Below, piece after piece: positions 52,805 to 62,002 of a stretch of 64,000 nt of DNA. The position numbers and the translations under genes were made by a program. This stretch comes from Shewanella sediminis HAW-EB3. GTDB lineage: Bacteria > Pseudomonadota > Gammaproteobacteria > Enterobacterales > Shewanellaceae. Numbering within the stretch: position 1 is the first letter of the stretch; each line of letters opens with the position of its first letter. The notes beneath the pieces are model-generated. The model was not told where the DNA came from. It worked only from the letters and a program-made list of their open reading frames with translations, and searched no databases. Location: contig NC_009831.1 of NCBI RefSeq assembly GCF_000018025.1, positions 992,001-1,056,000 on the forward strand, written 5' to 3'.

Positions 52805-53869
52805 ATGGCTTTAATTTCCCTACGTCAAATGCTAGATCATGCTGCAGAACATGGTTATGGCGTCCCCGCTTTTAACGTAAACAACCTTGAGCAGATGCGT
52901 GCCATCATGCAAGCTGCTGAGGCGACCGATAGCCCTGTTATCGTTCAGGCTTCGGCAGGTGCACGTAAGTATGCTCGTCCTCAGTTTCTTAAGTATCTGA
53001 TGGCCGCTGCACTTGAGCAGTACCCTGATATCCCTGTGTGTATTCACCAGGACCATGGTACCGATCCTGATATTTGTCAGCGTTCGATTCAGTTAGGCAT
53101 GTCATCGGTAATGATGGACGGTTCATTGATGGCAGACGGTAAGACTCCTGCTTCATATGAGTATAACGTCGACGTTACCCGCAAGACGGTAGCTTTTGCT
53201 CACGCTTGTGGTGTCTCAGTTGAAGGTGAAATCGGTTGTTTGGGTAGCCTTGAAACGGGTGAAGCCGGTGAAGAAGATGGGATCGGTGCTGCAGGTATTT
53301 TGAGCATGGACCAGATGCTAACCACACCTGAAGAGGCAGCGCGTTTCGTTGCCGATACTCATGTCGATGCATTGGCTATTGCCATTGGTACCAGTCATGG
53401 TGCGTATAAGTTTAGCCGTAAACCTACCGGCGATGTACTGCGTATCGACCGCATTAAAGAGATCCACGCGCGTATTCCTAACACTCACCTGGTGATGCAT
53501 GGTTCTTCATCGGTACCTCAGGAGTGGCTCAAGGTCATCAATGAGTACGGTGGTGAGATGCCTGAAACTTACGGTGTTCCTCTAGAGGAGATCGTTGAAG
53601 GTATCAAGCATGGCGTTCGTAAGGTCAATATCGATACCGATCTGCGCTTGGCATCTACGGGAGCTGTGCGTAAATTCCTTGCAGAAAACCCAAGTGAATT
53701 TGATCCACGTAAATTCCTTAAGGCGTCTATGGAAGCGATGGCTGACATCTGTACTACGCGCTATGAAGCCTTTGGTTGTGCCGGCATGGGCTCTAAGATT
53801 AAGCCTAAGTCACTGCAGGCTATGTATAAAGCATACCAGTCAGGTGAACTTGATCCGCAGATTAAATAA
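52805..53869 (+). CDS. fba: Fructose-1,6-bisphosphate aldolase, class II (Calvin-cycle-type)
   Basis: 354 residues. The zinc-binding [12 protein letters not shown] (His near 81 and 84), the phosphate-binding Gly loop region, [12 protein letters not shown] and [17 protein letters not shown] mark class II aldolase. The Calvin-type subgroup is indicated by the start [26 protein letters not shown] precedes the ATG. Ends in a clear terminator, closing the tkt-epd-pgk-fba set. Confidence 0.96.
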
Positions 53870-53900
53870 GTCGTTCTAATCTAAAAGACAACTTATCTTA

Positions 53901-53931
53901 AATGCCCGCCTAGTGCGGGTATTTTTATTTC
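53901..53931 (+). terminator. Terminator after fba
   Basis: CCCGC-CTAGT-GCGGG stem-loop, extended by weak outer pairs, followed by TATTTTTATTT. Confidence 0.85.
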
Positions 53932-54083
53932 TGTCACTTTTAGTTTATTCCGCACTATCAATATGATAGGTGTCGTTCGTGAGTAAGTCATATTTGAACT
54001 GTATCAAGCATTTTCATTTCTGTTTTGTGAGTGTTAATATTGCGCCGATTTTAAGGGATATGATCTTTCGGAGTGGTATAAAA

Positions 54084-54824
54084 ATGAAAAAATTGCTTAT
54101 TGCATCTGCTATTTTAATGGCTGCACCTTTTGCTGCTCAAGCGGGTGCTAACTTTGTCGAAGGCGATAAAACATTCGGCGGAGATGCCGAGCTGGGTGCA
54201 ACGCTGACTACCGGTAATACCGAAACCACATCGGTTAAAGGCCGTCTTGATATGAAGCATGAACTGGGTAACTGGGAAAACCAGTACCTGTTGGAAGCTT
54301 TATATAAAGAGGACACCGGTGAGGTGACGGGTAAGCGTTACTACGGCTTAATTCAGGCGGATTATAAGTTCGATGAAAAGAGCTATACGTTCGTTAACGG
54401 TAACCATGAGATAGACCCATTTACCGGTTTCGATTCAAAATCTACAGTCTCTGCCGGTTATGGTCATAAATTTATCGATACAGGCAAGACCCTTTTCAAT
54501 GTTGAAGTCGGTCCGGGTTATCAGTATAAACGTCTGGACGATGAAAGCGCTGCGGCTGCCGGTTACGAAACTGAGGATAGCTGGGTTGCTCATGGTGTGG
54601 TTAACTTTGAGAAGCAGATAACAGAGTCTTCAAAGTTTAAGCAGATGTTTGTGGCTGACTATGGTGACAGTTTAGAGGGGCGTTCGGAAACTTCTATCAC
54701 AGCTAACATTATCGGAGCACTGGCGATGAAGTTTGCCGTTATTGTCCGTTATAACAGTGAGCCGTTAGACGATAAGAAAAGCACAGATACCGAAACTAAT
54801 ATGACCTTGCTGTATGCATTTTAA
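54084..54824 (+). CDS. DUF481 outer-membrane beta-barrel protein (YdiY-like)
   Basis: ATG 54084 is chosen because it begins a signal peptide (MKKLLIASAILMAAPFAAQA) and has GGAG upstream. The 246-residue protein has alternating beta-strands with aromatic girdle residues and ends in LLYAF, an outer-membrane C-terminal Phe signature. DUF481 motifs include GAELGATLTTGNTETTS-like strands and FDEKSYTFVNGNHEIDPFTGF. YdiY-type proteins are acid- or salt-induced in other bacteria; the function is unknown. Confidence 0.85.
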   Translation: MKKLLIASAILMAAPFAAQAGANFVEGDKTFGGDAELGATLTTGNTETTSVKGRLDMKHELGNWENQYLLEALYKEDTGEVTGKRYYGLIQADYKFDEKSYTFVNGNHEIDPFTGFDSKSTVSAGYGHKFIDTGKTLFNVEVGPGYQYKRLDDESAAAAGYETEDSWVAHGVVNFEKQITESSKFKQMFVADYGDSLEGRSETSITANIIGALAMKFAVIVRYNSEPLDDKKSTDTETNMTLLYAF

Positions 54825-54846
54825 GTCATACTAAGTGACATCTGAT

Positions 54847-54870
54847 AAGCACCTTCGGGTGCTTTTTTAT
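54847..54870 (+). terminator. Terminator after the DUF481 gene
   Basis: AAGCACC-TTCG-GGTGCTT, a UUCG tetraloop hairpin followed by T6ATT. Confidence 0.9.
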
Positions 54871-55091
54871 TGTAAAAATTAAGCTTGAATATGAGTTTTA
54901 CCCCCCCTGTTTATTTACCTTTAGTTAACCGATGTAACCTTTCAGCTATAGCTATCTTGTTAATTTTAAAGTATTAACGTGTTCCTTGTCACGAATTTGC
55001 TCTTTGCTCATGCATAACTTATTGCGATCACAGATTGACGTGCTAGGAATGGTTACAATGTTTTGCCATATACTTGATTTGAGGCAGATAA

Positions 55092-55838
55092 ATGCAAATT
55101 GGTTGCTGTTGGTTTGATATGAGTCGAAAGACTTTGTCCAATCTGATTAATGACACCAGTTGGAAAATGTCTGCAGTTGAATTCTCTGTGCTGGAGATGC
55201 TGGTTAAACATCGCGGTAAGGTGCTCTCTATTCAGGAATTACTGCAGGGGATGCCTGTCGAAAATCGTAAGGTAGAGATATTAACCGAATCTATAGAGCG
55301 GATCTGTTTTTACCTTGAGAAGCGATATGCCTCCTTGATCGAACGCGTCGATGATCAAGGTTATGTCTTACATAATAAGCCTTCGGTTAAATCAGGCGAG
55401 CTTTCCTCTACACCTTTTAGAAGCATCTCTAAGAAGCACTACAGCATATTGGTTGCTCAAATCTTATTATTGATAGTTCTGATCTACTCATTTTTTGAGC
55501 CTGCAGTGGATATCAAGCCCGAAAATAAACATGTGCTGACAACACAATCCGGTACCCTCTCCTATTTCCCATCCTTTAGTTCAGAGGAGCAGGAACTAGC
55601 CTATTTTTATCAGAATAATCATTTTATAGAGTCTATCGAAACCTGCTCTGTTACGACGTGGCGACAGATTTTTTTATCTGTCTCCTCTGATAACCCGGAA
55701 AATGGCGTTATCAGTATTGCGCTTAGAAATGATACTGGTGGAAAAGCCGAAATGAAGACTCTGAAGATAGTGCCAATAGATGGACAGTGGAATTTCATCA
55801 ATCATGCCTGGTTAAAAAAAGTTGGGATCTGTGATTAA
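55092..55838 (+). CDS. ToxR/CadC-like membrane-anchored winged-helix regulator, module 1
   Basis: A 248-residue bitopic regulator. Residues 1-95 form a Trans_reg_C winged helix (WKMSAVEFSVLEMLVKHRGK, LIERVDDQGYVLHN). A basic linker and one TM helix (about 118-135, ILVAQILLLIVLIYSFF) lead to a periplasmic domain of about 110 residues. Cys185 (ETCSVTTWRQIFLS) and the penultimate Cys247 are conserved in module 2 and could form a disulfide, as in ToxR. The next gene overlaps by 8 bases. It would bind DNA from the inner membrane in response to a periplasmic signal; the target is unknown. Confidence 0.85.
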   Translation: MQIGCCWFDMSRKTLSNLINDTSWKMSAVEFSVLEMLVKHRGKVLSIQELLQGMPVENRKVEILTESIERICFYLEKRYASLIERVDDQGYVLHNKPSVKSGELSSTPFRSISKKHYSILVAQILLLIVLIYSFFEPAVDIKPENKHVLTTQSGTLSYFPSFSSEEQELAYFYQNNHFIESIETCSVTTWRQIFLSVSSDNPENGVISIALRNDTGGKAEMKTLKIVPIDGQWNFINHAWLKKVGICD

Positions 55839-56364
55839 TCGCTTTACCGGTAGCCTTAGAGATGAAGTTAAAATCTGGCCACTTATCATCACCTTCTTGA
55901 TGATTGTCGGCTTCTGTATGGGACTTAACTACTACGTGATGAATGGCGAGAACCTCACCGCATCCTGCAGAGCGAATATCTACAATACCATCGAGGATAG
56001 ACCCACGGACGTTGTTATCGATATCACCACTAAAGGAAAGCGGATGGAACTTCAGTACCGGTTTCTCGAAGAGGAGATCGAACAGAGCAGCATCATCATG
56101 AGAGGAACACTTCTCGATCTCGACCTTGAGACAATGACCTATCGATTGACACTAGATAGTGGCGAGTTGCTTTCACATATCTCTCCACCCCGCTTTCCGG
56201 AGCGGATGAGCAGGCTCATCGATTATAGTCGCAACGCGCTCTCTGGAGATACTCCCGACTCTATCCCACTCGATATCCATGTACTGGATATGAATGCAGT
56301 GCAAGGCAATGCGATCATTCAGTTTCACCCCGGTAATGGCATCTGGGCCTGTGAGCTAAATTAA
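55831..56364 (+). CDS. Small bitopic membrane partner of the regulator, module 1
   Basis: The most likely start is the GTG at 55831, inside the final Cys codon of the upstream gene; a TTG at 55822 is the alternative. The 177-residue product has one TM helix near the N terminus (about 17-34) and a periplasmic domain. Cys46 and Cys174 are shared with the module 2 homologue, as are the VVIDITTKGK and MRGTLLDLD segments. Topology, size and overlap with a ToxR-like gene recall ToxS, a stabiliser of ToxR. Sequence similarity to ToxS could not be tested. Confidence 0.75.
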   Translation: MINRFTGSLRDEVKIWPLIITFLMIVGFCMGLNYYVMNGENLTASCRANIYNTIEDRPTDVVIDITTKGKRMELQYRFLEEEIEQSSIIMRGTLLDLDLETMTYRLTLDSGELLSHISPPRFPERMSRLIDYSRNALSGDTPDSIPLDIHVLDMNAVQGNAIIQFHPGNGIWACELN

Positions 56365-56481
56365 CTTACTCATTGCTATATTCTCTCTGCGCCGCTTCCC
56401 AGCCCCCCTTTATTTTTAATACTCCATCAGAAGCATACACCGCGATAAACATTGCCTGTAATGGCTTGGATGTTAGGCATG

Positions 56482-56747
56482 ATACCAATCGGTATAAGAA
56501 AGTGATCTACTCAGAGTCTTTTTGGCAAACTAATTCAAGGCGAATGAATGAGGGAATGGTGATCCCTTCTAAAGTCATTCAACGTAGAAGTAGGCAGCCA
56601 AAAACACTCCTGAAAGGCGAGTTTTAGCGCACCTGATGCTGTGTTAACGAGCTTAAACGTAGAATAACTATGTTCCTCACTCGTTACCTTACCTCAGAAG
56701 CGCTAAATCGCTCGCTGAGCGATCACATCTTTATACGGATTGGTATT
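56482..56747. mobile_element. MITE-like element with 26-bp terminal inverted repeats
   Basis: Left end ATACCAATCGGTATAAGAAA continuing to GTGATC, and the inverted right end, match at 22 of 26 positions over a 266-bp interval with no gene of its own. A solo end occurs at 20024-20040. No transposase is present and no clear target duplication was seen. Confidence 0.75.
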
Positions 56748-57027
56748 TGCTCCATATTCTAGAGCTTTCGAGAAGGTGTTAAGTCATTCTTTAATGCAGT
56801 CGAAAGCCATGATCTCCGTAGCCCCCAAGTTTATCGCATCTGGTTTGTGGGCATTGGGCCAAGTCTTCACTAAGCCGTTCAGCCAATGCTTTAATTCATA
56901 TTGTGGTTGTAAAGAGAAGGATGTGAGTGATGAGCAATAGCTTATGCTCCATGTACTATGACTCGTGACCTATGACCTTAAGCATATGCCTGCCCAGAAT
57001 TGTGAGAGACTGACGGCTTCAACTTAT

Positions 57028-57087
57028 GTCTCAGTTAACTCACTTTTGTCTCTGTTAACTTATTTTAGGCTCAGTTAATGTATTTTG
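57028..57087. repeat. Three 20-bp imperfect tandem repeats
   Basis: Units at 57028, 57048 and 57068, each of the form GKCTCWGTTAAYKYAYTTTN, at exact 20-base spacing. They carry a TCWGTTAA core and might be binding sites or a repeat remnant. Confidence 0.75.
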
Positions 57088-57112
57088 TATTAGTGAAGGG
57101 ATTTATGAGCAC

Positions 57113-57138
57113 AAAAAAAGGAGAGGGGATACCTCTCC
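57113..57138 (-). terminator. Minus-strand terminator of the cytochrome-lipoprotein operon
   Basis: GGAGAGG / CCTCTCC stem followed on the minus strand by T7, about 190 bases after the lipoprotein stop. Confidence 0.85.
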
Positions 57139-57206
57139 AAAGTGGGGACGATAGCAATCTAATTAATATGTCGCCAATTTGATGATAAAAGGCGGCTAAC
57201 GTTTAA

Positions 57207-57302
57207 CGATGGGGAACTGCTTTACACTAAGTCATGGTGATGAACCCAGGCTCGCGATGGCGACAAACACCATGCTATGTAAAGCAGCTCCAATTCCCAT
57301 CG
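57207..57302. repeat. 96-bp nested inverted repeat in the operon 3' region
   Basis: Three paired blocks: CGATGGG / CCCATCG, CTGCTTTACA / TGTAAAGCAG and CATGGTG / CACCATG. They form 24 pairs around a 28-base loop, with small bulges. It starts about 25 bases after the lipoprotein stop on the minus strand and would be transcribed. Confidence 0.8.
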
Positions 57303-57327
57303 GTGGAACACATTAAAACATTTACTC

Positions 57328-57864
57328 TTATACAGCTGGTGGTGGAAGAAGCTCCAACTCACTGCTGCTTAACGCTCCTTTTATTTCAATAGCAACTTTA
57401 TACTTCTGTACCGCACCAGGAGTTGCACCGCTATCCCAATCTAGTCCCGGAGCCTCGAAGGTGTAGGTTCCTTTCGTTTCCGTCTCTGTCAGCAGGCCTT
57501 CGCACTCGTTGGCTTCACTGTCGCACTGATAAGACTTGCTCAGGTGCCAACGTTTCCATGCTTTAGGTTTAGTTGACTTATCATCATGGTCGGGAAAACC
57601 AAAGTAGACAATTCGATAGTCTTTAGCGTTAGTGATAGCCATTTCATCGGCATCGCTGAGGCTAAAGCTTAAGGCGCCGCTTACACCATCAAAAGTTGCT
57701 AGTTTCAACCCTATGGTAGCAGCCTCATTAACATCTATCGTTGTCGCTACCGGTGGCAATACCGGCTCTTCAGGCAATACAGTATCGTTATCGTTATCGT
57801 CACTGCTACAGCCTGTAGTCAGCAGCGCTCCGGTTAAGAGTACGCTTAATAATTTATATTTCAT
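57328..57864 (-). CDS. Lipoprotein following the split-Soret-like cytochrome
   Basis: ATG 57864 is chosen because GAGGAG lies 6 bases upstream. The 178-residue product has a lipoprotein signal (LLTGALLTTGC). Next come an acidic linker with SSDDNDND and a beta-rich domain (IGLKLATFDGVSGALSFSLS, KGTYTFEAPGLD, KYKVAIEIKG). Style and spacing of this domain recall the non-haem N-terminal domain of OmcA/MtrC cytochromes, but it has no CXXCH. It has two Cys in a YQCDSEANECEG loop. Probably an outer-membrane or periplasmic partner of the cytochrome, encoded 11 bases upstream. Confidence 0.72.
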   Translation of the reverse strand: MKYKLLSVLLTGALLTTGCSSDDNDNDTVLPEEPVLPPVATTIDVNEAATIGLKLATFDGVSGALSFSLSDADEMAITNAKDYRIVYFGFPDHDDKSTKPKAWKRWHLSKSYQCDSEANECEGLLTETETKGTYTFEAPGLDWDSGATPGAVQKYKVAIEIKGALSSSELELLPPPAV

Positions 57865-57875
57865 GACGCGCTCCT

Positions 57876-58700
57876 CTAGTTGAAGTGGCCAGTATGACAA
57901 GTTGTACATTCCATATCTGCTTTAACGCTGGCAGCTGAGCCCATCGTTGAATCTACGCCGTGACAACTCTGACAGGCTTGTGCTTCTTCTGAAGGCTTAG
58001 CCTCAGGAAGGACACTCAGGTCCTCACCGTCATAGGCGCGGTTCAATAGCTCTACAAGGTGGTAGGCGATAGAAGCCGACAGACGCTTACAGCGCTCACC
58101 CTTCTGGGCGAAGGTCTTGCCCGAAGCCTTAGACCAGTTACTGATAGATGAGTGACAAAGGATGCTGTTTGCTACAGAAGAGGTGACAACTTCATCTGTT
58201 GTCTTCTCGGCAGTAGAGCCGATACCGGCGACGAACTCAGGAGATGAGAGAGGTAGTTCGGTATTCTCGTAGTATCTGAATAATGAGCCGATAACCGCCC
58301 CATTTTGACCATTGATATCACCAAGGATATTCACCAGCATACCGGTTGCGTTGATGTTACCGCAGACGGTGCCCTGGCCAATAATACCTGCCCAACCATA
58401 TCCGGCCAGTGCCGTTGGAATAGAATCGAACTTGGCTTTATCTTCACTATCTGAGTCGGCTAACATAGTAACAAGAGAGTGGAAAATTTGGTGCATACAG
58501 CCACCAGGTGTTTCATAGGCGATTTTAGCCGCTGTCATTGGGTCGAGTGGCACATACTTGAGCGTTTCTTTTAGCGCTAATTTGTAGTTTCCGGCTTCAT
58601 CTGTCGCCGCGAAAGCCGAAGTACCCATAAGCGTCGCACCTGCGGCCGCTGTGCTGATACCGATGATTTTTGTTAATGCTTGTCGTCTGTTAATAGTCAT
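57876..58700 (-). CDS. Tat-exported dihaem cytochrome, split-Soret-like (C_GCAxxG_C_C family)
   Basis: ATG 58700 is chosen over 58706 because AAGGA is then 6 bases upstream. The 274-residue precursor has a twin-arginine signal (INRRQALTKIIG then a hydrophobic stretch). The middle has the Cys pattern of the C_GCAxxG_C_C family (GGCMHQIFHSL, GTVCGN, ILCHSS, ERCKRL). The C terminus has two c-type haem motifs, CQSCH and CTTCH. This combination resembles split-Soret cytochrome c of Desulfovibrio, which also binds an iron-sulfur cluster; Tat export fits a folded cofactor. First gene of a two-gene operon with the lipoprotein. Confidence 0.82.
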   Translation of the reverse strand: MTINRRQALTKIIGISTAAAGATLMGTSAFAATDEAGNYKLALKETLKYVPLDPMTAAKIAYETPGGCMHQIFHSLVTMLADSDSEDKAKFDSIPTALAGYGWAGIIGQGTVCGNINATGMLVNILGDINGQNGAVIGSLFRYYENTELPLSSPEFVAGIGSTAEKTTDEVVTSSVANSILCHSSISNWSKASGKTFAQKGERCKRLSASIAYHLVELLNRAYDGEDLSVLPEAKPSEEAQACQSCHGVDSTMGSAASVKADMECTTCHTGHFN

Positions 58701-59174
58701 AATCATTCCTTACTTAATAAGCGTTATTTTTGTATGGCTTACTTACTTAAAGTGGCTCTGCCTGGGTTGACTTCGCCGCCGTTTGACTTGAGTTAAGTTT
58801 GCGCCGTCAGATTTATAAATAGTGTGATCTTCGCCATATGAATATTGAGGTTGATTAGAAAAATCTTTTGAATCAAATGAGAGCAGGAATGATGTGATTT
58901 ATAGATTGAAGGTGGCTGTTAACATCGGTTTTACAGTGGTGAAACAGGTGCAGATCACTATATTTGTTAAATTCATGTTAATTTGTCCATTGTGAATATA
59001 AACTCAGAGTCTTCTTCATCTATTCAACAGTGTGATTTTGTTCGCAAAATTGTCATCATCTTGCCGCTAAGTGTATATTTTTTAGCGAACTTTTATAGGA
59101 GATAGGGGGGATCACAGAAATTATTAGTTTTATTGAATATGATTTAATTGTTATCTGTTAAGGAATCTAGATAT
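58701..59174. promoter_or_regulatory. Divergent promoter region of the cytochrome operon and regulator module 2
   Basis: 474 bases between divergent starts. A CRP-like site TGTGA-TTTTGT-TCGCA lies at 59031-59046, about 130 bases before the regulator start. The rest is AT-rich with no ORF. Any site for the module regulators would be expected here. Confidence 0.5.
59031..59046. promoter_or_regulatory. CRP-like binding site
   Basis: TGTGA-N6-TCGCA matches the CRP core TGTGA-N6-TCACA at 9 of 10 positions. CRP controls anaerobic respiration genes in Shewanella, so a role here is plausible. Confidence 0.45.
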
Positions 59175-59909
59175 ATGCAATTGGGCAGTTGTCAGTTTGA
59201 TATTGAGCGAGCGCAACTAACGAATCTGGAAAATGGCGATGTTTGGCACTTACCCAGGGCCGAGTTACAAGTACTTAAGTTACTTATTGCCAATCGTAAC
59301 AGGATTGTTGCGAAGCAGAAATTAGGTGCTGCCGATGAAGAGCACCCCCCTTTAAGTGATTCTTCCGTGACTCGCGCCGTATTTATGTTGCGCTCTTTCT
59401 TGGGGCCGGAACACGAGCAGTTGATTGAAACGGTAAAGAGTAAAGGTTATCGGCTACGGGGCGAAGCTAAACGTACCCAATGGGCACAGATGGTCAAACT
59501 CAAGCGTGGCTTGATCCTGGCCTTGATGATTGTCTGTATATTCGCATCCATAGGACTCGTTACCCAGTTTTCAAAGTGTGGTTCGACTACCGAACCATAC
59601 AATGTTACTCCGATAACTCTCTTGTCCGGTCAACAGATAAACTTAATCAGTTACTCTAAATCGAAGACAAATACTGAGTCATTGATGAGTGTTATCACGC
59701 AATTTTCTGCCGGATTCAAAGGGTGTTATTCGGCGCCCTGGCAAGATATCTATCTATCTTTATCCCATGATGAGCAGGTGTTTAATATCACCATGAGAGG
59801 GGAGAAGTTGGGCCAGTCGGTGGTGAGAAACCTTAAGTTATCTGACTTTCGCCAACAGAAACAATTTATCTCTGAAGCTTGGTTAGATGAGGTGGCGCTT
59901 TGTGAATAG
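59175..59909 (+). CDS. ToxR/CadC-like membrane-anchored winged-helix regulator, module 2
   Basis: ATG 59175 (AAGGA 11 bases upstream) gives 244 residues; a TTG at 59148 adds nine unlikely residues. The winged helix (WHLPRAELQVLKLLIANRNR, SSVTRAVFMLRSFLG, LIETVKSKGYRLRG) is the more canonical of the two modules. One TM helix (about 112-130) and a periplasmic domain follow with Cys184 and Cys243, aligned with Cys185 and Cys247 of module 1. Shared segments are W(R/Q)(Q/D)I(F/Y)LS(V/L)S and a terminal FI-x-x-AWL-x-x-V-x-x-C. Divergent from the cytochrome operon; its partner gene overlaps by 8 bases. Confidence 0.86.
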   Translation: MQLGSCQFDIERAQLTNLENGDVWHLPRAELQVLKLLIANRNRIVAKQKLGAADEEHPPLSDSSVTRAVFMLRSFLGPEHEQLIETVKSKGYRLRGEAKRTQWAQMVKLKRGLILALMIVCIFASIGLVTQFSKCGSTTEPYNVTPITLLSGQQINLISYSKSKTNTESLMSVITQFSAGFKGCYSAPWQDIYLSLSHDEQVFNITMRGEKLGQSVVRNLKLSDFRQQKQFISEAWLDEVALCE

Positions 59910-60423
59910 AAAATTACTCTGGGGAGTCAACTCAATCATCTTAGTCTTGCTGATAATCAGTATCTCTATCAGCTATCGTTATCTGAACCCGAGCGAGACC
60001 TTGATGTTAAATTGCAGCTCTGAGCTATTCGATAGACATAAGGGCGATAGCGATAAGGGACGTCATTATCTACTCGTCGATGTGATTGCTAAGGGGAAGC
60101 AGGCACAGTTTAATTACCGATACTTCAACTTAGATGGCAGCTTGGCGGGTAACATTCGCATGAAGGGGAATCTGTTAAAATACGATAGCGATGCCCACAG
60201 GTACTCTTTTTCTGTGAAGACTAAAGAGGAGTCCGAGGTCAATGATGATCAGCGCCAGCCTGAGCATATGCAATACCTCTCCTATGTCAGCTCCTTTAAC
60301 CTGGATAATAAGGGGATGCACAATCTGAGTATTGAAACATTAGATCTCGATGAGCAGAAGGATTATGCCATCGTACTGTTTCAACCTAGTAATACGGTCT
60401 GTGGCTGTCGTCTGGTGCATTAG
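59902..60423 (+). CDS. Small bitopic membrane partner of the regulator, module 2
   Basis: GTG 59902 begins inside the last Cys codon of the regulator and has GAGGTGG upstream, giving 173 residues; ATG 59887 is an alternative. One N-terminal TM helix (about 8-25) leads into a periplasmic domain. Cys38, Cys167 and Cys169 align with the module 1 Cys pair. Shared blocks are VDVIAKGKQ / VIDITTKGK and RMKGNLLKYDSD / MRGTLLDLDLE. Layout equals ToxS; homology to ToxS is untested. Confidence 0.77.
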   Translation: MNRKLLWGVNSIILVLLIISISISYRYLNPSETLMLNCSSELFDRHKGDSDKGRHYLLVDVIAKGKQAQFNYRYFNLDGSLAGNIRMKGNLLKYDSDAHRYSFSVKTKEESEVNDDQRQPEHMQYLSYVSSFNLDNKGMHNLSIETLDLDEQKDYAIVLFQPSNTVCGCRLVH

Positions 60424-60604
60424 TCGCCTGAGGCACTCGTCATCAGACGCTGTCGAATCTTAATGTTTGATGAGCAGCTTCTAAGCTTCTCGATATTGCT
60501 GTGACTCTCAGGAGCCACAGCGTCAAATCTGAAAGAACAACCGGTCCTGATAGGCTATAATAAAAGTAACTATTTGATTTAATTTCTCAATATTCAGGAG
60601 TTCA

Positions 60605-61990
60605 GTGGCTAAAATTCGAGTCAAACAGGAAGAATCTCTCTCTATTAAGTTTATCCACCAGATGAAGGTGGGCGCTAACCGACGTCTGGATCTCTATTTT
60701 TTTCTCCCTAAAGAGATGGGTATTGGCCCACATAGCCTCAATGAGGAGGAGTATTACCACTCAGCCATTACCGGTCGTCGTTCATATTACTCCTCCGCCT
60801 TACACCTTCCCTTGGTGCAGAGTCGTTTCGCGAGTCAGAAGAAGCGTACGGTTGAAGAGTTTCGTCTCTATCTGAACCTGTTTGCTTACCAATTTGCGGT
60901 CGCCATCGAAACAGACAGCAAGGAGTTGGGGCAGATAGAGGATGCTGAGGAGTTTTATGGAGCACTTAATGCCCTTTATGAGCTGGTTATTCAACTGCTG
61001 AAGAAGTTCCGTCGTAATGAGCCCAGCGATCCTAAGTGGAAATCGTATTTTGAAAATGCAGATAACTACCTCTCCTGGTTCTGTGAACAGCGATTATTGA
61101 AGCTGTTATCGAGAGCGCCAAGAAGCAGCGAATTCAGCGAAATCGTCGAGAATGTCATCGGCTTGTGTCGCTCTGAACATGAGCATAGAAAGTCGAAACG
61201 ATATAACTCACTCCACACAGTTGAAGATCCGAATCGTATCTCTAATAAGATGCTATTACTGAGGCGGTTAATTCAACAGGGCGTAGTATTAAAAGATGAA
61301 TTTAAGGTATTAGGTGTTGGCCTGAAGAAGATGACCACAGGCTTTGCCACGGCTATGGTGATGTTGGTCGTTTCCGCCTTGATTATTAAGGCTCAGGGCG
61401 TGTTCAGTGGGCTTACGATAGCATTGGTGCTGACACTAGCGGTTATTTATGGATTTCGAGAAATATTTAAGGAAGATATCCGTAACGCTCTATGGCGAGT
61501 GATTCAGAAAGGGCGTCCTAAATGGAGTCGCATTCTCAGGGATACCACTAGTCAGGCTCCGATTGCGAAACAACTCGTCTGGATGGACTTTATGAAATCG
61601 GCGGAGTTGCCTGCTAAGGTTTCTGAGATTTTGAAGAGGCGTCATAGCCAGAATAAACTCGATGCTGAAGTGCTGCATTACGGCATACACACCAGGGTGA
61701 CACAGAAAGATTTTTTAGCCGGATACACTACGATTCAGGAACAGGTGAACTTCAGCCTTGCGCCATTTGCACGTTATCTTGAGCGTGGTAAAGCCAAAAT
61801 CTATAGAGAGCAAGATGGCAAAATCAGTAATGACTCTGTCGAGCGTAGATATCAGATAAACATGATCTTGGCTGTCAGAGATGATAAGGATGAGGTTCAA
61901 TATGCTCGCTACAAGATCACCATGAATCGCTCGACCATAATAGATGTGAGCCAAAGTGATCTCCCCGATGGGATCCCGGAGATGGATTAA
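60605..61990 (+). CDS. Unknown two-TM cytoplasmic-facing protein
   Basis: A 461-residue protein not recognised. The GTG start is supported by AGGAG four bases upstream. An N-terminal 240-residue helical region (EEFRLYLNLFAYQFAVAIET, LLKKFRR) precedes a hairpin of two TM helices (about 247-285, FATAMVMLVVSALIIKAQG and TIALVLTLAVIYGFREIF). A basic C-terminal half of about 170 residues ends acidic. No catalytic motif is visible. It lies alone between module 2 and a convergent sensor gene. Confidence 0.7.
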   Translation: MAKIRVKQEESLSIKFIHQMKVGANRRLDLYFFLPKEMGIGPHSLNEEEYYHSAITGRRSYYSSALHLPLVQSRFASQKKRTVEEFRLYLNLFAYQFAVAIETDSKELGQIEDAEEFYGALNALYELVIQLLKKFRRNEPSDPKWKSYFENADNYLSWFCEQRLLKLLSRAPRSSEFSEIVENVIGLCRSEHEHRKSKRYNSLHTVEDPNRISNKMLLLRRLIQQGVVLKDEFKVLGVGLKKMTTGFATAMVMLVVSALIIKAQGVFSGLTIALVLTLAVIYGFREIFKEDIRNALWRVIQKGRPKWSRILRDTTSQAPIAKQLVWMDFMKSAELPAKVSEILKRRHSQNKLDAEVLHYGIHTRVTQKDFLAGYTTIQEQVNFSLAPFARYLERGKAKIYREQDGKISNDSVERRYQINMILAVRDDKDEVQYARYKITMNRSTIIDVSQSDLPDGIPEMD

Positions 61991-62002
61991 GTTGTCGAAC
62001 GA

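Follow-up and report, generated by a model that had tools for sequence, protein, structure and literature searches.

Near the right end of the 64,000-nucleotide stretch analysed here (the window; Shewanella sediminis HAW-EB3, NC_009831.1, positions 992,001 to 1,056,000), a regulator gene (R2) and a small partner gene (P2) lie divergently beside an operon for a lipoprotein and a relative of split-Soret cytochrome c. We predict that R2-P2 is a membrane receptor of the VtrA/VtrC-ToxR/ToxS ('co-component') type that likely controls this operon. A paralogous pair on its other side, R1-P1, is part of the neighbouring locus and adjoins the cassette in some genomes but not in others. For this reading as a whole we estimate a probability of roughly 0.68. 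Shewanella is a genus known for respiration, and R2-P2 is most likely a dedicated receptor-regulator of the cytochrome operon, control being suggested by the linkage of the genes and by conserved GATCACA elements between them.

Cytochrome matches were found in 106 of 129 Shewanella genomes, and the stretch around every listed match was fetched. Gene families were mapped with profiles in a locus sample of 120 regions, of which 114 surround cytochrome matches and 6 surround R1 matches, plus 56 regions at other R1 matches that lie apart from the cytochromes. The 114 cytochrome loci are 113 fetched ones and the window; one genome with cytochrome fragments only (G104) was left out. Where the cytochrome is at least 51% identical to that of the window, a regulator is divergently adjacent in 98 of 99 loci; for cytochromes 36-46% identical this holds in 1/15. 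The partner gene stands next to the regulator in 98 of the 99 regulator-linked loci, the exception being G067, where R2 is broken into two frames before P. Regulator-linked cytochromes of this kind occur in 98 of the 129 genomes. Their cassettes are located at the fba/o461 locus seen in the window (49), beside o461 in the other orientation (2; G011, G053) or elsewhere (48). The co-occurrence of module and cytochrome across Shewanella for which the first-pass annotation had suggested a search is thus borne out for R2-P2, in 98/99 loci at differing genomic sites. Searches with P2 and R2 returned 77 and 63 proteins, respectively, and all those with an organism in the source name were from Shewanella, as were all 57 loci in a scan of named genomes; a P2 search in plasmids found none. 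Within the order, the cytochrome occurs in 18 of 295 genomes and 2 of 99 genera, and the sole genome of the second genus (G157) carries the same four-gene cassette.

The features of the locus are as follows.

55092..55838, plus strand: R1, regulator of 248 aa with a winged helix, one transmembrane helix and a periplasmic domain; paralogue of R2 and resident of the fba-DUF481-o461 locus.
55831..56364, plus strand: P1, bitopic partner of R1; its GTG start at 55831 overlaps the last Cys codon of R1 (TGT 55830-55832).
55026..55032, plus strand: GATCACA element, 66 bp upstream of R1; a candidate operator that also resembles a CRP half-site.
57328..57864, minus strand: L, predicted lipoprotein with a lipobox-like LTTGC; neighbour of the cytochrome in 114/114 loci.
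57876..58706, minus strand: C, dihaem split-Soret cytochrome c relative of the twin-arginine translocation (Tat) type, with an NRRQALT start and two CxxCH motifs.
58707..59174, no strand: divergent intergenic control region between C and R2, 468 bp, with four conserved blocks.
58823..58829, minus strand: block a, GATCACA reading towards C (TGTGATC on the plus strand).
58953..58985, no strand: block b, GATCACTATATTTGTTAAATTCATGTTAATTTG, the conserved middle block.
59031..59046, no strand: block c, CRP-like TGTGA-N6-TCACA with one mismatch.
59110..59116, plus strand: block d, GATCACA, 65 bp upstream of R2.
59175..59909, plus strand: R2, ToxR-like regulator of 244 aa, divergent to the cytochrome, with C184 and C243.
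59902..60423, plus strand: P2, bitopic partner, predicted to form a lipocalin-like barrel of VtrC/ToxS type, with C38, C167 and C169; its GTG start at 59902 overlaps the last Cys codon of R2 (TGT 59901-59903).

The four regulator and partner genes of the first-pass annotation are all open frames, and the oppositely oriented cytochrome and lipoprotein operon that it placed between them is present. NRRQALT and LTTGC resemble a Tat motif and a lipobox, respectively.

The cytochrome matches split-Soret cytochrome c of Desulfovibrio desulfuricans (PDB 1H21) over residues 53-273 with an E value of 1.4e-20. Its score against NF047622 is 112.5 bits, below the 400-bit equivalog cut-off; by sequence, it is a distant split-Soret relative and not an equivalog. 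We presume it to be the counterpart of SO0939 of S. oneidensis, on the basis of a shared description. SO0939 is described as a split-soret diheme cytochrome c among predicted Tat substrates (PMC3623810). The D. desulfuricans gene ssc appears among nitric-oxide-affected genes with a 'fold change' of -1.74 (PMC5701242), and split-Soret mutants of D. alaskensis are reported to have no phenotype (PMC4215793). In the open-access literature we found no function for the split-Soret cytochrome in Shewanella and no paper with the locus numbers SO_0940, SO_0941, SO_0938 or SO_0936. The S. sediminis genome encodes a second split-Soret-like cytochrome about 420 kb away (L170 6498-8034), which is 43% identical and comes with a separate lipoprotein yet lacks an R/P pair; a 314-aa gene that looks LysR-like by eye shortly precedes it on the same strand, then on the other strand come ferredoxin-like and NrfD-like genes (also by eye).

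The two regulator modules are homologous, as had been claimed from the window. R1 and R2 share 27% of their residues along the whole length (E 2e-27), and P1 (compared without its first codon) and P2 are 27% identical over 117 positions (E 8e-13). R2 matches Trans_reg_C (PF00486) with 38.7 bits and R1 lies exactly at the 26.2-bit cut-off; in the S. sediminis genome (one contig of 5,517,674 bases), an R1 query at E 0.01 matched R1 and R2 only. The regulator cysteines reported earlier were confirmed and are highly conserved among relatives: C185 in 89/89 and C247 in 88/89 R1 sequences, and both C184 and C243 in 98/98 R2 sequences. The partners conserve C46 (88/89) and C174 (89/89) in P1, and C38 (98/98), C167 (97/98) and C169 (98/98) in P2. 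C167, the extra C-terminal cysteine in the CGC of P2, has no counterpart in P1 and was overlooked in the first-pass annotation.

The two genes of each module overlap in most pairs, as is usual for co-component cassettes. In 80 of 98 R2 pairs and 84 of 90 R1 pairs, the partner start codon comes no later than the stop of the regulator, and in 74/98 and 81/90, respectively, it overlaps the codon for the C-terminal cysteine of the regulator (minus-strand pairs of cytochrome-free stretches, G073 and G094, are excluded). Structure prediction covered R2 and P2. The P2 model has a lipocalin-like periplasmic barrel of the VtrC/ToxS type, in which C38 (strand 33-42) and C169 (strand 165-171) are placed for a disulfide between the first and last strands. 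In the R2 model, the order of the periplasmic elements fits beta2-alpha-beta3-alpha; whole-protein fold searches were dominated by winged-helix matches, and VtrA or ToxR periplasmic chains were not among the R2 matches listed, a list that was filled by the DNA-binding domain and so excludes nothing. The ToxR/ToxS likeness that was first drawn for both modules therefore stands for R2 and P2 by predicted fold, and for both by the codon overlap. A profile of P2 searched against PDB sequences gave a best E value of 0.38 (iron-regulated surface proteins), which is not significant.

If R2-P2 works as its predicted fold suggests, the periplasmic domain of R2 would complete the lipocalin-like barrel of P2, and a small periplasmic ligand, or a change in the conserved cysteines, would alter the pair. 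The winged helices of R2 could pair at GATCACA-type elements in the 468-bp shared region, and R2 would activate or repress the cytochrome operon and its own gene, with CRP acting as well.

Candidate operators were counted in 98 cytochrome-R2 regions of 347-641 bp, which have conserved blocks in common, 82 from the main R2 clade and 16 from a divergent R2 group that was set by bit scores and alignment before any element was counted (G037 contributes its second cassette to this group). Controls were first-order resampled sequences for the counts of exact GATCACA, CRP, FNR and ArcA, and single-base shuffles for positional and R1-promoter counts. Exact GATCACA is present in 81/82 main-clade regions versus 1.3 resampled. 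It lies 55-85 bp before R2 in 73/82 (0.13 shuffled), and TGTGAT lies 40-160 bp from the cytochrome also in 73/82 (5.4 shuffled). The divergent group has an altered recognition helix, and its regions carry TAATNCTNATTAC in 15/16; exact GATCACA was seen in 2/16, GATCACA 55-85 bp before R2 in 0/16 and TGTGAT by the cytochrome in 1/16. In S. sediminis itself, a regulon search with GGATCACAGAAATNATTAG at up to 3 mismatches found 3 places versus 6 for the reversed control, and only the known site (0 mismatches) stands out.

Several observations weigh against dedicated control by an R2-P2 of this type. The joint change of recognition helix and operator is a single evolutionary event. Of 14 second-type cytochromes without an adjacent regulator, 11 have TGTGATC in the 450 bp before the gene. 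Among the matches listed, two genomes (G012, G038) keep R2-P2 at fba/o461, where neither the cytochrome nor the lipoprotein could be detected in the stretch (L256 7174-8527, L257 6559-7894). Alignment of the P2 and R2 profiles to the single YqeJ and YqeI sequences of Escherichia coli K-12 by hhalign gave no significant match (YqeJ probability 0.6), nor was any FidL family among the 25 Pfam families listed for 56 P2 relatives; these comparisons found no relation to FidL/YqeJ at the sequence level. GATCACA is no proof of control by R2, because the second-type cytochromes without a regulator carry TGTGATC and because the element is also a CRP half-site; an operator exclusive to R2 is ruled out as proof by the 11/14 count. 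GATCACA could serve R2 as an operator, CRP as a half-site, or the two together.

The element also favours a rather improbable alternative, in which the cytochrome is really regulated by CRP, possibly together with ArcA or FNR, and R2-P2 is a linked passenger with targets elsewhere. CRP-like palindromes with at most one mismatch are present in 46/82 main-clade regions and 7/16 divergent ones, compared with 1.3 and 1.0 in resampled sequences, and an ArcA-like consensus at up to 3 mismatches in 12/82 main-clade regions versus 1.3. FNR-like sites (at most one mismatch) are enriched in the divergent group (7/16 versus 1.0), yet not in the main clade (2/82 versus 5.7). Against this alternative, the linkage of R2-P2 to the cytochrome survives relocation of the cassette. 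In most cases, blocks a and d have no good second half of a CRP site, and they change with the R2 clade, a point that counts insofar as CRP itself is assumed to be constant. The first-pass annotation had instead proposed that both modules together form one duplicated redox switch controlling the cytochrome between them, which we consider very unlikely. The modules do flank the cytochrome in the window and, with an intact R1-P1 abutting the cassette, in 31 of the 99 regulator-linked loci. GATCACA also occurs in the R1 promoter in 27 of 90 stretches of 140 bp (0.6 shuffled), at about the distance seen for R2, and it was found in 20/62 genomes with main-clade R2 and 0/13 without R2, but also in 4/15 with the divergent R2 clade. 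The position of R1 argues against a shared switch. All 62 R1 sites fetched apart from the cytochrome have o461 to their right, and 58 of them have fba or DUF481 to their left; these sites were picked among the matches listed for lying outside cytochrome stretches, so that the absence of a cytochrome there is by choice. Of the regulator-linked loci outside fba/o461, 47 are in genomes whose R1 was fetched at fba/o461. Among the 49 cassettes at this locus, 18 have a truncated R1-P1 or have lost it, yet retain R2-P2, and the recognition helix is hypervariable in R1 and conserved in R2. In a regulator tree of 94 of the 188 pairs, R1 (44) is separate from R2 (49 and the G067 half), with 100/99 on both sides. 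One duplicated switch was rejected on the R1 locus, the regulator clades and the helix variability. Modules in unrelated positions with no cytochrome in most genomes, which the first-pass annotation had named as telling against its proposal, are what we found for R1, whereas R2 does not show this pattern. R1-P1 is a separate paralogue resident in the neighbouring locus, and the twin arrangement is a side-by-side meeting of two old modules, because R1 holds the fba/o461 locus, R2 travels with the cytochrome and the regulator clades are separate.

Two further proposals concern what P2 does. It is possible, though we think unlikely, that P2 is a ToxS-like protector of R2 from proteolysis only, with structural cysteines and no ligand or redox sensing; this is compatible with control of the cytochrome by R2-P2. 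All co-component regulators but VtrA are described as having conserved disulfides, and ToxS as a likely protector of ToxR against degradation (PMC9214523). On the other hand, the third conserved cysteine of P2 is superfluous for one structural disulfide. More speculatively, and in our view improbably, the barrel of P2, with this extra cysteine and an odd number of thiols, would sense the redox state in the periplasm for the split-Soret cytochrome: the disulfide state of P2 would be set by the cytochrome or its redox partner, and P2 via R2 would set transcription of the cytochrome, as a feedback loop at the inner membrane. Redox sensing by R2-P2 is possible, and the third cysteine would make it testable. 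A C-terminal cysteine disulfide is common in the superfamily (PMC9214523) and does not by itself point to redox sensing.

Decay of R1 follows the pattern expected of a two-part sensor, with the R1 sensor domain and P1 absent jointly. Short R1 genes beside the cassette encode 143-166 aa, ending after the transmembrane helix, in eight genomes and 134-137 aa in three more, and one further short R1 (141 aa, G035) has no cassette. P1 was undetected in all twelve of these genomes, and queries with the R1 periplasmic domain and P1 had no match between the short R1 and the next gene. Full-length R1 without intact P1 is seen in G074, where P1 is partly readable, and in G111, a 52% complete genome. Six cassettes at fba/o461 lack any R1, and G084 has only R1 fragments. 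In three genomes (L258 5520-7309, L259 6323-8060, L260 5823-7562), the DUF481/o461 locus encodes a split module, with a winged-helix-plus-transmembrane gene, a separate transmembrane-plus-periplasmic gene closer to R2, and then P. Two other loci (L138 8138-9122, L139 4369-5338) have, co-directional behind the cytochrome and lipoprotein, an R2-like gene without a winged helix and a P gene; a complete divergent R2-P2 is also there.

The gene order at the right end of the window is epd-pgk-fba-DUF481, R1 and P1 (plus strand), lipoprotein and cytochrome (minus), R2 and P2 (plus), o461 (plus) and a PAS/GGDEF gene (minus); the names epd, pgk and fba are presumptive. Between P1 and the lipoprotein gene (56365-57327, about 960 bp), the sole listed open reading frame of at least 80 codons fully within has 84 codons (56373-56627). 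The product of o461 (60605-61990; 461 codons) matched no Pfam family up to an E value of 1, and in many mapped stretches the gene flanks R1-P1 or the cassette on the right. An Rfam scan of 53000-62000 found nothing at the gathering score.

Co-component receptors are known as virulence cassettes of enteric bacteria that evolve fast (PMC9214523), and here the architecture is widespread in Shewanella. Shewanella and cytochrome each occur 0 times in the main text of that paper, and Shewanella and FidL 0 times in PMC10269533; in the open-access literature we found no paper combining FidL with Shewanella, nor ToxR, Shewanella, transmembrane, winged helix and cytochrome. R2-P2 is tied to one candidate target, and a single linked operon with a conserved control region makes the question of the signal easier to approach, as does its occurrence in laboratory strains; P2 was found in Shewanella sp. 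ANA-3 (L287), for example. Natural contrasts are available in short regulators without sensor and partner, in split modules and in a paralogue whose site differs and whose DNA-binding helix drifts. The linkage also gives a handle on split-Soret cytochromes, whose function is little described in the literature found.

By predicted fold, R2-P2 resembles VtrA/VtrC of Vibrio parahaemolyticus (PDB 5kev, 5kew, 8dml) and ToxR/ToxS of Vibrio (PDB 8b4d, 8alo, 8u2f). In contrast to R2, which may have one, VtrA has no disulfide (PMC9214523). VtrA/VtrC neighbours a type III secretion system and R2-P2 a cytochrome operon, and R2-P2 is not known to have any bile acid context. ToxR/ToxS is named as an exception to the gene overlap (PMC9214523). 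The junction itself also differs, since in the window the GTG is one base downstream of the TGT, whereas an ATG one base upstream is described (PMC9214523). MarT/FidL, GrvA/FidL and YqeI/YqeJ of enteric bacteria have a regulator disulfide and partner cysteines on the first and the last strand, which are adjacent (PMC9214523), features that P2 and R2 would share; for such pairs, both were needed for the phenotypes in Typhi (PMC2827545). 'FidL-like membrane protein' is the UniRef name of some P2 relatives. The cytochrome of the window is homologous to split-Soret cytochrome c of D. desulfuricans but is paired with a lipoprotein, and linkage to this cytochrome is one difference between R2-P2 and the MarT/FidL, GrvA/FidL and YqeI/YqeJ pairs.

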